Below, in pieces: positions 35,792 through 40,467 of a DNA stretch of 64,000 nucleotides. The DNA lies in assembly GCF_000519085.1 (NCBI RefSeq), contig NZ_KI912577.1, forward strand, positions 746,501-810,500, given 5' to 3'. Source of the DNA: Methylobacterium sp. 10. GTDB taxonomy: Bacteria; Pseudomonadota; Alphaproteobacteria; Rhizobiales; Beijerinckiaceae. The notes beneath the pieces were generated by a model. That model searched no databases. It saw nothing but the letters and a program-made list of their open reading frames with translations, and was not told the origin of the DNA. A program made the position numbers and the translations under genes. Position 1 is the stretch's first letter. Every line of letters begins with the position of its first letter.

Positions 35792-36268
35792 CTACGCCCC
35801 GGCGACGTGCAGGACGATGTCGCGCCGATGCGGCCGGTCGCGATGCTCGATCAGATAGATGCCCTGCCACGTGCCGAGGACGAGCCGCCCGTCGGTGACG
35901 GGGATCGTGAGCCCCGAATCCGTCAGGAGGGTGCGGATATGCGCCGGCATGTCGTCGGGGCCTTCCGCCGAATGGATGTACCCGCCACCGGGGAGGCGCG
36001 GGGCGAGGCCGTCCAGCGCCGTCATCAGGTCGCTCCGCACATCCGGGTCGGCATTTTCCTGGATCGTCAGGGAGGCCGAGGTGTGCCGGCAGAACAGGGT
36101 GAGCAGGCCCTGCCCGATGCCGCTGCGCCGCAGGAAATCGGCCACGGACGCGGTGATGTCCGTGAATCCCTGCCCCGGCGTCGAGACGGTGAATCGGGCG
36201 CTCGCCTGGCGCCGGATCTCGCCCTCCTGAAAGCCTTCGATCCCGCCGATCCTGCCCGAACCTCTCAT
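35792..36268 (-). CDS. yjbQ: YjbQ/UPF0047 family protein
   Basis: 158 residues covering the whole YjbQ fold. GQGFTDITASVADFLRRSGIGQGLLTLF leads into CRHTSASLTIQENADPDV, the conserved family core, then HSAEGPDDMPAHIR and LGTWQGIYLIEHRD. Members have weak thiamin-phosphate synthase activity in some species, but their physiological role is unsettled. The start ATG overlaps the ligase stop (ATGA), so it is translationally coupled to the ligase gene. Confidence 0.93.
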   Translation of the reverse strand: MRGSGRIGGIEGFQEGEIRRQASARFTVSTPGQGFTDITASVADFLRRSGIGQGLLTLFCRHTSASLTIQENADPDVRSDLMTALDGLAPRLPGGGYIHSAEGPDDMPAHIRTLLTDSGLTIPVTDGRLVLGTWQGIYLIEHRDRPHRRDIVLHVAGA

Positions 36269-38259
36269 GCTGTCTCTCCCTCGATGACGGCGCCCGGCGC
36301 GATCTCGCGCTCGCCGCGGGCCAGGATGGTCTCCAGGGCCTCGATCCGGTCGGCCTCGGCCGCCGGCTTGTCCCAGCGGATGCGGTGGACCCGGGGGAAG
36401 CGCATGGCGACACCGGATTTGTGTCGGGTGGAGCGTTGCACGCCCTCGAAGGCGATCTCCAGCACCAGCCCCTCGTCGAGGCCGTAGGCCACCTCGCGCA
36501 CCGGGCCGAAGCGCTTCGTCGTGTTGTTGCGGACGTAGCGGTCGAGCTTGGCCAGTTCCGCATCGGTGAAGCCGTGATAGGCCTTGCCCACCGGCACCAG
36601 TTCGCGGCCGCCCTCCGGCCGCTCGCGCCAGACCCCGAACGTGTAGTCCGAATAGAAGGACGAGCGTTTCCCGTGGCCGCGCTGGGCATACATCATCACC
36701 GCGTCGACGAGGTGCGGCTCGCGCTTCCACTTCCACCACGGCCCCTTGGGGCGTCCGGGGAGATAGGGGCTGTCGCGCAGCTTCAGCATCACCCCCTCGA
36801 TGGCGTCGGCATCCTCGCCCGCCCCCACCGAAGCCGGGTCGGCGCGGGCCTCGGCGAGATCGTCCCAGGTGGCGAAGGTCACGAGCGGCGAGAGGTCGAT
36901 GCGGGCGTGATCCAAGGCGGCGACGAACCCCTCCAGCCGGGCGCGGCGCTCGGCGAAGGGCAGCGGGCGCAGGTCCTCGCCCTCCGCCGTGAGGAGGTCG
37001 TAGGCCCGGACATGGGCGGGGAACTCCTCCAACAGCTTTGGCGTGACGGCTTTCCGGTTGAGGCGCTGCTGCAGGACGTTGAAGCTCTGAACCCGCTCCT
37101 CCCGCAGGATCAGCAACTCGCCGTCGATGGTGCCGGTGAAGGCGATCGCCTCGGCGAGATCGGGGAAGGCATGCGTGATGTCCTCGCCGGTGCGCGAATA
37201 GACCCGCGCCACCTGTTCGCCGACCTCGTCGCGGCCACCGCTGAGCTGGACGCGGATGCCGTCCCATTTCCACTCCCCCGAGAAGGCGGACGGGTCGAGT
37301 TTCGCGAAATCCGTTTCCTCGTCGATGGGGTGGGACAGCATCGGCGGGCGGAACGGCGCCGGGTTGAGGGTGGTGGGGCGCTCCCCCCTCCCCTCGACCC
37401 AGGCGAACAGGCCGAGATACGGCGGCTCGAGCCCGTGCCAGACCTCCTCCACCGCATCGGCCTCGTGGCCGCCGAGCGCCCCCACGGCCGTCTTGGCGAG
37501 GCGCGCCGAGACGCCCACGCGGAGCGCCCCGGTGATGAGCTTCAACAGCGCCCAGCGCCCGGTCTCGTCGAGGGCATCGAGCCAATCGGCGATATGGCCG
37601 GGAAGATCGGACTTTTTCGTCGTCGCGAGGGTTTGCACCACCTCGGAGAGACTGGGGATGTGCGGAGGTGGGTTGTTGTGGCCGGGGCCTATCAAAGGAT
37701 CGCCCGCCAGGTAGGCACGAGGCGCGACGGGCTCCCTCTCCTGCAAGGAGAGGGTTGGGGTGAGGTGTGGTCCATCTCCGGAGAGGTCGCACACCTCACC
37801 CTGTCCCTCTCCTTCCAGGAGAGAGGACCCGCGCTGCCCGCGAGATTGTGGCAGCCGGGGGTGAGGGGGCGAATCCGAACGAGCCTCGTCCGGTGACACC
37901 CCCTCACCCTCGCCCTGCGGGTTTGCCGCGCCGACGCCGAGGTCGTCGCGGCCCTCCCCTCGCCCAGCGGGGAGGGGGGGAGCAGCGAGCGGCGGCCAGA
38001 TCAGGGCCGTGGTCTCGGCGAGATCGCCGACATAGTTGTGCGAGAGCGCGAACAGCACCGGATCGACCCGTGCCTCCACCAGCCCGCGGATCATCGCCGG
38101 CTTGGCCTCGCGGAAGCTGAGGTTGCCCGTCATGGCGGCGAGCGCCCAGCCCCGATCCGGGTCCGACGCATGGGCGAAGTAATCCTGCAGCAGGCGCAGC
38201 TTGGCGTTGCGGCGCGGCTCGTAGGCGAGGCGGTCGAGGAGATGGGCGAAGTCGTTCAT
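36265..38259 (-). CDS. ATP-dependent DNA ligase with a large in-frame insertion
   Basis: 664 residues, about 100 more than I expect for this bacterial ligase family. The N-terminal domain (about 1-90) is followed by an insertion at about 88-195 that is Gly/Glu/Pro/Ser-rich and matches palindromic repeat DNA. Family sequence then resumes (SLSEVVQTLA, TGRWALLKLITGALRVGVSARLAK). The adenylation core has the AMP-accepting lysine near 331 in GEWKWDGIRVQL, then DGELLI; the C-terminal OB fold ends near 650. This ligase usually pairs with a beta-lactamase-fold exonuclease, a DEXH helicase and the phosphoesterase PdeM; only the exonuclease is here, overlapping by ATGA. Role: repair-associated end joining. 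Confidence 0.9.
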   Translation of the reverse strand: MNDFAHLLDRLAYEPRRNAKLRLLQDYFAHASDPDRGWALAAMTGNLSFREAKPAMIRGLVEARVDPVLFALSHNYVGDLAETTALIWPPLAAPPLPAGRGEGRDDLGVGAANPQGEGEGVSPDEARSDSPPHPRLPQSRGQRGSSLLEGEGQGEVCDLSGDGPHLTPTLSLQEREPVAPRAYLAGDPLIGPGHNNPPPHIPSLSEVVQTLATTKKSDLPGHIADWLDALDETGRWALLKLITGALRVGVSARLAKTAVGALGGHEADAVEEVWHGLEPPYLGLFAWVEGRGERPTTLNPAPFRPPMLSHPIDEETDFAKLDPSAFSGEWKWDGIRVQLSGGRDEVGEQVARVYSRTGEDITHAFPDLAEAIAFTGTIDGELLILREERVQSFNVLQQRLNRKAVTPKLLEEFPAHVRAYDLLTAEGEDLRPLPFAERRARLEGFVAALDHARIDLSPLVTFATWDDLAEARADPASVGAGEDADAIEGVMLKLRDSPYLPGRPKGPWWKWKREPHLVDAVMMYAQRGHGKRSSFYSDYTFGVWRERPEGGRELVPVGKAYHGFTDAELAKLDRYVRNNTTKRFGPVREVAYGLDEGLVLEIAFEGVQRSTRHKSGVAMRFPRVHRIRWDKPAAEADRIEALETILARGEREIAPGAVIEGETA
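37734..37985. repeat. Cluster of intergenic-type palindromes inside the DNA ligase gene
   Basis: At least three hairpin-forming units lie in the coding sequence: CCCTCTCCT (37734-37742)/AGGAGAGGG (37746-37754); GGTGAGGTGTG (37759-37769)/CACACCTCACC (37790-37800); and a CCCTCCCC/GGGGAGGG pair near 37950-37980. Together with spacer DNA they encode the extra residues of the ligase without breaking the frame. Confidence 0.75.
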
Positions 38260-39344
38260 GCCACGGCCTCGTCCGAAATCGCCGGAGCCTCGTCCACTGC
38301 CGCCGCAGGCTCCTCTCGTGCCGCCGCAGGCTCGGCCTCGCCGTCGTCGCCATAGCCGAGCATGTGCAACGGCTTCGCCGCGATCCCTTGTGTCCCGCAC
38401 CAATGTACCAGGGCGTCCTCCTGCCCGTGCGTGACCCAGACCTCGCCGGCCCCGGTCTCGCGGATGGTGCGGCACAGGTCGGGCCAGTCGGAATGGTCGG
38501 AGATGACGAGGGGCAGTTCGGCGCCCTTCTGCCGGGCGCGGGCGCGCACCCGCATCCAGCCCGAGGCGAAGGAGGTGACGGGATCGGGGAACTTGCGCGA
38601 CCACACGTCCTGGATCGCCGAGGGCGGGCAGAGCACGATGGCCCCGTGGAGTTTGCCGCGCTCCGCCGCGACCACCTTCGGCGTCTCGCCCAGGGGAATG
38701 CCCTCGCGCTTGTAGAGCTCGGTCAACTTCTCCATGGCGCCGTGGAGATAGATCGGTTCGTCGTAGCCCGCCTCCCGCAGCAGGGCCATCACCCGCTGCG
38801 CTTTGCCGAGCGCATAGGCGCCGACGATATGGGCGCGCTCGGGGAACAGGGCGACGGAATCGAGGAGCTTGCGGACCTCGCCCGCCGTGTCCGGCATCCG
38901 GAAGACCGGCAGGCCGAAGGTCGCCTCGGTGATGAAGACGTCGCAGGGAACGACCTCGAAGGGCAGGCAGGTCGGGTCGTAGGCGCGCTTGTAATCGCCC
39001 GACACCACCACCCGCACGCCCTGGGCCTCGATGGAGATCTGGGCCGAGCCGAGGACGTGGCCTGCGGGTGCGAAGCGCACGGTGACGTCGCCGATGCGGA
39101 TCTCCTGCCCGAGCACCGCCTCCTGGCGTGCTTCGCAGAAATCCTCGCCGTAGCGCACGGCCATGATCCGCAGGGTCTGGCCGGTGGCCAGCACCTTGCC
39201 GTGGCCGGACCGGGCATGGTCGGCATGGCCGTGGGTGATCAGCGCACGCGGCACCGGCCAGGTCGGGTCCACATGGAATCCGCCCAGCGGGCAGTACAGG
39301 CCCTCGCGGGTCTGGGTCAGGAGGTCGCCCGCGCGAAGGCTCAT
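38256..39344 (-). CDS. Ligase-associated DNA exonuclease (metallo-beta-lactamase fold)
   Basis: 362 residues from ATG 39344. The family start GDLLTQTREGLYCPLGGFHVDP is followed by the metal-binding motif THGHADHA near 45, VRFAPAGHVLGSAQI and VVSGDYKR, then SDHSDWPDL near 300. This matches the ligase-associated (mRNA 3'-end processing/SNM1-like) exonucleases encoded next to ATP-dependent ligases. A low-complexity Ala/Glu tail occupies the last 35 residues. It overlaps the ligase start by four bases. The frame is open further upstream but that DNA holds the 39395-39438 palindrome and no family sequence. Confidence 0.92.
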   Translation of the reverse strand: MSLRAGDLLTQTREGLYCPLGGFHVDPTWPVPRALITHGHADHARSGHGKVLATGQTLRIMAVRYGEDFCEARQEAVLGQEIRIGDVTVRFAPAGHVLGSAQISIEAQGVRVVVSGDYKRAYDPTCLPFEVVPCDVFITEATFGLPVFRMPDTAGEVRKLLDSVALFPERAHIVGAYALGKAQRVMALLREAGYDEPIYLHGAMEKLTELYKREGIPLGETPKVVAAERGKLHGAIVLCPPSAIQDVWSRKFPDPVTSFASGWMRVRARARQKGAELPLVISDHSDWPDLCRTIRETGAGEVWVTHGQEDALVHWCGTQGIAAKPLHMLGYGDDGEAEPAAAREEPAAAVDEAPAISDEAVA

Positions 39345-39394
39345 GCGCGGGGCCGAAGATCGGGATGGCAGCTCATGCGACGTGATATAGGGCG

Positions 39395-39438
39395 CCCAGG
39401 CCGGTTCGCGTCGGCTCGCCAACGCGAACCGGCCTGGG
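39395..39438. repeat. Perfect 17-bp inverted repeat between divergent genes
   Basis: CCCAGGCCGGTTCGCGT (39395-39411) and its exact complement (39422-39438) are separated by a 10-base loop. It lies between the exonuclease and methyltransferase starts. On the plus strand TCTTTT follows, giving a terminator-like shape; an operator is the alternative. Confidence 0.75.
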
Positions 39439-39455
39439 TCTTTTGTGCCGCGGGT

Positions 39456-39492
39456 CGTCGACGCAAAACCGGTGACCACTTTTGCGGACCCT
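39456..39492. repeat. AACCGGT-core palindromic repeat, copy B
   Basis: CGCAAAA (39462-39468) and TTTTGCG (39480-39486) flank the core CCGGTGACCAC. This is identical in core to the copy at 57148-57171 and ends 13 bases before the methyltransferase start. Confidence 0.78.
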
Positions 39493-39498
39493 GCCGAG

Positions 39499-40467
39499 AT
39501 GAACCCGCGAGCGCTCACGTCCCTCCAGAACAGCTCCGGCGACCTCCTCGCCGACCGGCGCTACGCCTATGCCGAGGCCTGCCTCGTGGAGGGCGACGCG
39601 CAGGGCGCGGCGGAGATGGCCGAGCAGGCCCTGGAGATCGCGCCGCGCTACGCGGCAGCCTGGTTCCTCCTCGGGAGGGCACGGGAGGCGCGCCACCTCG
39701 CCACGGCGGACCCCGGCGATCACCACGCCGCGCTCAGGGCCTACGGCAACGCCCTCGATCTCGACCCGCACGACGAACTCGGGGCGCGGCTGCGCCTCGT
39801 CCAGATCGGCCAGGGCGACGCCCTGGGCTCGATCTCGCCGGCCTATATCCGCGCCCTGTTCGACGGCTACGCCCCCCGCTTCGAGCGCCACCTCGTGAAC
39901 GATTTGCACTATCGCGGGCCGGAACTCCTGGTGGCGGCCCTCGACGCCCTGGAAGCGGCGCCGGAGAGCTTCGGCGACGTGCTCGACCTGGGCTGCGGCA
40001 CCGGCCTGATGGGCGAGGCGCTGGCCGGCCGGGCCCGGACCCTCACGGGGATCGACGTCTCTCCCGGCATGCTCGCGCAGGCCGCCCGGGGCAAGCGCTA
40101 CCACCGTCTGGTGGAGGGGGATCTCACCCGCCTTCTCGCGGACGAGCCCCCGGACAGTGCCGACCTCGTCGTGGCGGCGGACGTCTTCATCTATGTGGGC
40201 GGCCTCACAAGGGTGATGACGGAGGCGGCCCGCATCCTGCGGCCCTCGGGGCTCGTCGCCTTCACGGTGCAGTGGCACCCCGAGGGCGGCCTCGTCCTCG
40301 GGATGGACGCCCGCTACGCCCATGGCGACCGCTACCTCCGGCAGGTTGCGGACGAGGCCGGTTTCGATCTCGCGAGCCTCGATCCGGCCGCGATCCGCCG
40401 CGAGCGCGGGATCGACGTTCCGGGACGAGTGGTGGTGCTGCGCAAGACCGGGCCCTGCGATCCGTAA
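39499..40467 (+). CDS. Class I SAM-dependent methyltransferase with N-terminal TPR repeats
   Basis: 322 residues from ATG 39499. The first 110 residues form TPR-like helices (AEACLVEGDAQGAAEMAEQALEIAP, ALDLDPHDELG). After the family phrase ALFDGYAPRFERHLV comes the Rossmann methyltransferase with motif I VLDLGCGTGLMGEAL near 170, then GIDVSPGMLAQA and DLVVAADVFIYVG. This architecture is common in alphaproteobacteria; the substrate is unknown. The open frame starts earlier (39445) but that part is translated repeat DNA. Confidence 0.85.
   Translation: MNPRALTSLQNSSGDLLADRRYAYAEACLVEGDAQGAAEMAEQALEIAPRYAAAWFLLGRAREARHLATADPGDHHAALRAYGNALDLDPHDELGARLRLVQIGQGDALGSISPAYIRALFDGYAPRFERHLVNDLHYRGPELLVAALDALEAAPESFGDVLDLGCGTGLMGEALAGRARTLTGIDVSPGMLAQAARGKRYHRLVEGDLTRLLADEPPDSADLVVAADVFIYVGGLTRVMTEAARILRPSGLVAFTVQWHPEGGLVLGMDARYAHGDRYLRQVADEAGFDLASLDPAAIRRERGIDVPGRVVVLRKTGPCDP

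Follow-up and report, generated by a model that had tools for sequence, protein, structure and literature searches.

How does a DNA ligase come to carry about 100 residues encoded by palindromes of the kind usually found between genes, and is the gene that carries them still alive? Protein-coding palindromes have their best-known home in Rickettsia, whose genomes are reduced and AT-rich. The ligase considered here lies in a window of 64,000 nucleotides, which is the whole stretch of DNA that was analysed, from Methylobacterium sp. 10 (contig NZ_KI912577.1, positions 746,501 to 810,500 of the forward strand). The original prediction, made from the letters of this window, was that a repeat element had entered the protein in frame. 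We compared the ligase and its linker across Methylobacterium and related genera, followed the repeats into other genes, and set them beside palindromic repeats that have already been described. The genome from which the window is taken is referred to below as the source genome, or G000 where it is listed with others.

The ligase gene and its palindromic insert

The features on which the argument rests are as follows, with coordinates given within the window.

36265-38259, minus strand: ATP-dependent DNA ligase of 664 amino acids, stop included, from its stop-free translation and a match to TIGR04120
37684-37992, minus strand: whole in-frame insert, residues 90-192, from the linker comparison of 56 Methylobacterium ligases
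37850-37979, minus strand: unit A (positions 12-141 of the insert query), other genomic copies about 70-84% identical
37714-37851, minus strand: core of unit B (query positions 140-277), peptide SSLLEGEGQGEVCDLSGDGPHLTPTLSLQERE, dispersed copies 82-96% identical
37728-37831, no strand: inverted-repeat arms of unit B, 52 nt, 79% complementary and spacer-free
37856-37912, no strand: inverted-repeat arms of unit A, 28 nt, 79% complementary
38256-39344, minus strand: ligase-associated DNA damage response exonuclease (TIGR04122, E 1.4e-143)

The ligase aligns from end to end with the NCBIfam model TIGR04120 ('cisplatin damage response ATP-dependent DNA ligase'; E 1e-249), its residues 2-646 corresponding to 526 model positions, so that the protein exceeds the model by 119 residues. 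NF006701 is concordant, with residues 1-648 matching model positions 1-537. The KWDG motif containing the lysine (residues 331-334) is invariant in all 46 aligned sequences and the 664 residues are free of stops, which bears out the expectation that the frame had been kept and the catalytic core left intact. The exonuclease gene lies upstream in the same direction and overlaps the start of the ligase by 4 nt; its own start at 39344 was picked by eye within a full open reading frame of 38256-39518. Just upstream of it, at 39395-39438, is an inverted repeat of 21 bp (95%) with a terminator-like shape.

The insert consists of 103 extra residues between the peptides ALIWP and GHNNPPP that are absent from compact orthologues, and it is built of two palindromes, units A and B, each of which recurs in the genome. 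The claim that some 100 residues have no family counterpart and are encoded by hairpins thus holds, on the comparison with compact orthologues, the inverted repeats and a shuffle test, while the extent first given for them (37667-37990, or residues 88-195 or so) is revised to 37684-37992 and residues 90-192. Folding of 37667-37990 gave -200.5 kcal/mol as against -153.4 (sd 5.4) for dinucleotide shuffles, a difference of 8.7 sd, and none of 100 shuffles was equally stable. No known Rfam RNA family was recognised in the insert: at the permissive threshold of E <= 1 the region 37500-38200 gave 38 matches of which none reached its gathering score, and 37 of these were to miRNA models. The peptide GHNNPPP that adjoins the insert (residues 193-199, 37663-37683) is found, identical or nearly so, right after the linker in ligases of Methylobacterium, Microvirga and many Bradyrhizobium (L031-L088, L101-L180), and is absent from the compact linkers read in Bosea and Ancylobacter.

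In an AlphaFold model (46 sequences) the insert falls between a helix that ends at residue 87 and another that starts at residue 204, with pLDDT below 50 over residues 102-193, and the modelled fold resembles archaeal and human DNA ligases. Together these features place the loop, on the model, inside the DNA-binding domain between its two helical halves, and suggest that it is probably disordered. What had been described as a repeat colonising the protein at a domain linker is therefore better described as a dispersed repeat lying in frame in a loop within a domain.

Rates of substitution also differ between the insert and its surroundings. Among G000, G034 and G004, all of which bear inserts, dN/dS of the flanks was 0.12, 0.07 and 0.09, and the flanks look to be under strong purifying selection, as would be expected of a living gene. 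With these values and a stop-free reading frame there is no sign of the dead or frameshifted gene that had been named as one outcome that would refute the proposal. Values for the insert, which rest on few substitutions and in which the left half of G004 is of another type and hence non-homologous in the alignment, were 0.77, 0.52 and 0.38; those for unit B alone, again from few changes, were 1.42, 0.79 and 0.46. Judged from these sequences, the residues of the insert look little constrained apart from their frame.

The ligase loop in Methylobacterium and related genera

A ligase match was present in all 59 Methylobacterium genomes searched. Linkers were fetched from 58 and could be read in 56, with G014 (a ligase fragment) and L048 and L050 (unreadable linkers) dropped. 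Of these linkers 29 are compact, with 8-24 residues, and 27 are filled, with 31-122 residues, and the reading frame is kept across every one of the 56. The alignment of orthologues proposed with the original prediction therefore finds the insert lacking in 29 of 56 congeners, and it is neither ancient nor universally conserved. When sorted by peptide motif the filled linkers fall into types S (13, including L064, which was moved there from 'other' by eye), B (5), T (5), R (2) and V (2), and the B-type linkers of G000 and G034 contain unit A as well. For 24 of the 27 inserts the fold is more stable, base for base, than that of any window of equal length from the core of their own gene; L072, L077 and L081 do not stand out by this comparison. 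On a tree of the ligase core, which is a gene tree and not a species tree, the Fitch minimum was 17 state changes, as against an average of 24.9 and a lowest value of 20 in 500 shuffles, which indicates inheritance within clades together with much turnover. In their ligases G003 and G008 carry the S unit in opposite orientations, with flanks of different length.

Beyond the genus, filling of the linker is confined to some genera. In an order-level sample a ligase was detected in 42 of 76 genomes (E <= 1e-40), and 40 of the 42 matched in one stretch with no large insert, the exceptions being the source genome and G090. A separate set of 80 named loci, 75 of which had both halves of the ligase, was skewed to long matches and excluded from rates; within it the linkers of many Bradyrhizobium, Microvirga, Xanthobacteraceae, Jiella and others resemble, by eye, translations of palindromes. 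Insertions of at least 12 amino acids were counted against a compact ligase in 131 rows (the 56 Methylobacterium and 75 named sequences, some genomes occurring twice), and of the 155 counted the linker holds 114 and the C-terminal tail 35, with 6 at other places.

A further sample, like the order-level one less biased than the named loci, came from the genus to which the genome bearing the Bradyrhizobium sp. BTAi1 locus belongs, and a ligase was found in 59 of its 60 genomes. In 26 of the 59 it matched in one stretch and in 33 it was split at the linker. The halves of 30 split ligases lie in an open frame of the same length, those of one (G152) do not, and those of two are on different contigs. 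The frame change across the filled linker of G152 (L319) is at a single-base run, and so is perhaps a sequencing slip, or else a broken allele. The smallest gap, in G194, is a remnant of 63 bases that is free of hairpins. Linkers were fetched from 29 of the 33 split ligases, together with that of G090; G059 and G062 were read through the named loci, and G149 and G195 are those with halves on different contigs. Of the 29, 27 were readable, 25 by script and 2 by eye. Among the 30 fetched linkers 25 fold below all 40 of their shuffles, and five (L296, L299, L303, L313 and L314) do not. Halves of the ligase on separate contigs were met in G022, G042, G149 and G195, as could be expected if a multicopy repeat breaks the assembly.

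Dispersed copies and their insertion into other genes

A search of the source genome with the insert gave at least 79 matches among those listed, with 40 of 149 first-look candidates scored, and these span both units, although the number of real copies is smaller since many of the matches are the two strands of one palindrome. That both A and B recur in the genome is as the original prediction would have it. Copies of unit A are found, for example, at C1:3962256-3962376 and C1:3822461-3822573, and 26 copies of unit B, the ligase copy included, were followed at their loci (E <= 1e-20). Across the genus, unit B was detected in 36 and the S unit in 57 of 59 genomes (E <= 1e-5), and copy counts for both are lower bounds because 14 candidates were scored per genome. 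The T-type linker of G027 matched between 3 and 47 places per genome in all seven genomes searched, and since it is 80% identical over 118 positions to unit A of the ligase in the source genome (G000:C1:784360-784481), T and A are taken to be one family. The ligase linker of Bradyrhizobium sp. BTAi1 has at least 40 matches in its own genome, itself included. Copy number was thus examined for units A/T, B and S and one Bradyrhizobium linker.

Intact S units are 124-135 bp in length, with sharp ends, and lie in unrelated contexts. Each is built of two hairpin ends in inverted orientation with a spacer between them, and the terminal inverted repeats, read by eye, are 25 bp. Several frames of such units are free of stops: three of six are open in the ligase copy of unit B and five of six in the S unit tested. 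It had been considered that unit B might be open in the ligase frame alone, but over the longer element that frame is open in 8 of the 26 copies and two others are open in 9 and 12, so the idea was not supported.

Insertions into other genes were counted only where a known domain lies on both sides of the element. In the source genome 25 long open reading frames over unit copies were scanned with Pfam and ten of them rescanned with NCBIfam. Unit B was found in this way, in frame, in BchB (TIGR01278), urea carboxylase (TIGR02712) and a MoeA/PBP fusion (NF011068). A prephenate dehydrogenase has two unit copies in its nucleotide-binding domain and is a probable fourth case among the 25, its model match beginning after the copies and the preceding part having been read by eye. 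The first copies in all four genes have the orientation and frame of the ligase copy. Two further frames, OEP and 6PGD, were rejected, as their best domain matches start downstream of the element. For the S unit 20 further loci were fetched, ten each from G000 and G008, and of the 16 overlying reading frames that were scanned one passed. This is the ligase-associated DEXH helicase of G008 (TIGR04121), in which the unit lies in frame between the DEAD and helicase C domains and is 99% identical to the S copy in the ligase of the same genome. The ABC permease, outer-membrane and TIGR03915 candidates were rejected because the gene starts after the element.

Linkers of bchB were read in 30 of 58 matching genomes and the frame was kept in all 30. 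Unit B is present in G000 and G034 and unit S in G004, G008 and G003; no full unit was recognised in the other 25, of which L196 may hold part of one. The S alleles (L183-L185) and B alleles (L181-L182) have common outermost ends at the same position in the gene. In G034 (unit B) and G008 (unit S) these are the S-type ends CCCTCCCCCCTCTGCGG and CCCCGCAGAGG, with differing interiors, a pattern that suggests exchange of the interior between common ends, or nesting. Helicase linkers were taken from the best 30 of 59 matches, a set that leans to filled loops because the query itself carries an S unit, and no rate is claimed from it. The frame is again kept in all 30; unit B is clear in G034 and G004, about 15 linkers are S-like by eye, and G000 has a different unit. 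When the same five close species are grouped by the repeat that they carry, the ligase places G000, G034 and G004 (with B) against G008 and G003 (with S), bchB places G000 and G034 against the other three, and the helicase places G000 by itself, G034 with G004, and G008 with G003. Turnover has thus been separate for each gene.

Origin of the insert and its relation to known repeats

We consider it likely that dispersed REP- or MITE-like palindromes, presumed to be mobile, have lodged in a tolerant and disordered loop of the ligase in the manner of the Rickettsia elements, and that the loop has been used more than once. Under this explanation two dispersed hairpin-forming repeats would have come to lie in the loop of the DNA-binding domain, where only insertions that are stop-free and keep the frame survive. 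GC-rich palindromes would supply several stop-free frames and the loop would tolerate a long disordered peptide, and with both in place the ligase would remain active as a single, longer protein, its added residues being nearly neutral. The loop would then have been filled repeatedly, in some genera of Hyphomicrobiales and with different repeat types, through fresh insertions and, probably, exchange between copies with common ends as well. The insert is presumably translated as part of the ligase and near-neutral for its function.

The means of arrival is less directly indicated. A resident RAYT as the mover of the units was rejected, since no match to PF01797 (Y1/RAYT) was found in the source genome, whereas 5 of 14 control genomes gave matches. 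Only 5 of 59 genomes in the genus have one, and none of G000, G034, G004, G008 and G003 is among them. None of 17 S copies is flanked by a target-site duplication of 3 nt or longer, and matches of 2 nt at their flanks numbered 2 as against 1.4 expected; some transposases make no such duplication. With no resident PF01797, no duplications and ends in bchB that look like the product of exchange, transposition is a step that we infer only.

It is possible, though we think it doubtful, that one or a few old insertions in the loop were later rewritten by ectopic gene conversion or cassette exchange among copies that share ends. The common S-type ends and differing interiors at one position in bchB of G034 and G008 would be accounted for in this way, as would short linkers such as NPPPAEGGG (L046, G058) that resemble collapsed S units, the 80% identity over 118 positions between unit A of the source genome and the T-type linker of G027, which are yet distant in the ligase tree, and the 97-99% similarity of the closest S copies, whether from one species or from two. 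However, not all of the S, V, R and Bradyrhizobium types in the ligase have common ends, the ligase S units of G003 and G008 are inverted with unequal flanks, the partitions of five species point to separate turnover in ligase, bchB and helicase, and compact linkers dominate across the order. A quite different idea, which we regard as very improbable, is that the gene is split or dying, the hairpin ending translation and the core being made from an internal start, or the whole being a pseudogene. The hairpin in the insert is indeed strong and the ligase of G152 is broken in frame, but the frame is kept in 56 of 56 Methylobacterium ligases, in 30 of 31 same-contig splits in the Bradyrhizobium genus, and in 30 of 30 linkers of both bchB and the helicase, and the ligase flanks are under purifying selection.

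Selection might instead have kept the inserts, if disordered spacers in ligase and helicase altered repair, for example through mutation rate or the binding of partners. Two ligase-associated repair proteins do have such loops in the same species, and many repair proteins that bear REPs, with speculation on mutators, are reported in PMC3733652. This adaptive explanation is nevertheless quite unlikely, given that the sequence, length and type of insert vary freely and constraint is weak, that the same repeats are carried by BchB, urea carboxylase and the MoeA fusion, none of which acts in repair, and that 29 of 56 congeners have no insert. A related and also unlikely proposal is that the ligase and helicase loops are preferred, perhaps selected, landing pads for unrelated palindromes in several Hyphomicrobiales genera, tuning repair or mutation rate; it has a parallel in the speculation of the same authors on repair genes with REPs. 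Returning to tolerated insertion of mobile palindromes, we ask next how far the repeats resemble those already known.

The Rickettsia palindromic elements (RPEs) are multicopy palindromes of several families that lie in frame within unrelated genes (PMC10969869, PMC3733652). The Methylobacterium units are likewise multicopy, palindromic and dispersed, and they occur in frame in ligase, BchB, urea carboxylase, MoeA/PBP and the DEXH helicase, the continued function of such genes being judged from dN/dS for the ligase only. They differ from RPEs in being GC-rich, in belonging to a Methylobacterium/Hyphomicrobiales lineage, and in that one loop takes different repeat types across genera. The similarity in principle that had been drawn at the outset holds for the presence of dispersed palindromes in frame within unrelated genes, and by this analogy an RPE-like mode of action is supported; it concerns mode only, and we do not assign the units to the RPE, REPIN or tagged REP families.

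In-frame palindromes and REPs inside genes, repair genes included, are of a kind already published. Di Nocera and colleagues (2013; PMC3733652) described GTAG/CGTC REPs within the reading frames of many bacteria, often in repair genes, among them a DNA ligase of O. terrae and recB of two Xanthomonas with REPs at about the same site. In their view an insertion that falls in a flexible linker or loop may be neutral, and they speculated about mutators in connection with repair genes that bear REPs. The main text of that paper holds no occurrence of Methylobacterium. Our units resemble these REPs in being palindromes inside coding regions, including those of repair genes, but the class is defined by a tag at one end of a palindrome of 20-40 nt, and units B and S do not fit this definition; by eye no GTAG/CGTC tag was seen at the ends of units A, B and S. 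Type V alone begins CGTCATTCC, that is with CGTC, and from its sequence may belong to the class. Recurrence at one site is also much greater in the ligase loop than for the intragenic REPs described in that main text.

Other classes offer partial likenesses. With its two inverted hairpin ends round a spacer the S unit recalls a REPIN or BIME; in contrast to a REPIN/RAYT system, however, the source genome lacks PF01797, which occurs in just 5 of the 59 congeners. The S unit also recalls a MITE in its dispersal, its sharp ends and its size, about 130 bp with terminal inverted repeats of some 25 bp, but none of the 17 copies has a target-site duplication of at least 3 nt, and a parent transposon was sought through PF01797 only. 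Br-REP1 and Br-REP2 are multicopy palindromes of Bradyrhizobium in 3' untranslated and intergenic regions (PMC5082802), and that genus also has an often-filled ligase loop; the core printed for Br-REP1 is, however, not evident by eye in the ligase linkers examined. In the open-access literature we found no report of this ligase site being filled by different types in several genera, or of a twin loop in the partner helicase.

The original prediction did not anticipate that one site would be filled by various repeat types in several genera, or that other genes would carry the same repeats. What appears to be a Rickettsia-like process thus takes place in a GC-rich lineage with cultured members, where a single loop provides dozens of natural replicates, both filled and empty. 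These make it possible to test whether new protein segments, translated and tolerated, can arise from mobile repeats, and whether tolerance or selection causes REPs to gather in repair genes. The repeats also account for the variable linkers, with peptides such as EGQGEV, SAGEG and SPARGEG, in the ligases and helicases of these genera. A further repeat type, running PPCGEELEVGV .. PSPQGGG, is found in the ligase linker of G004 (L033) and the helicase linker of G013 (L279).
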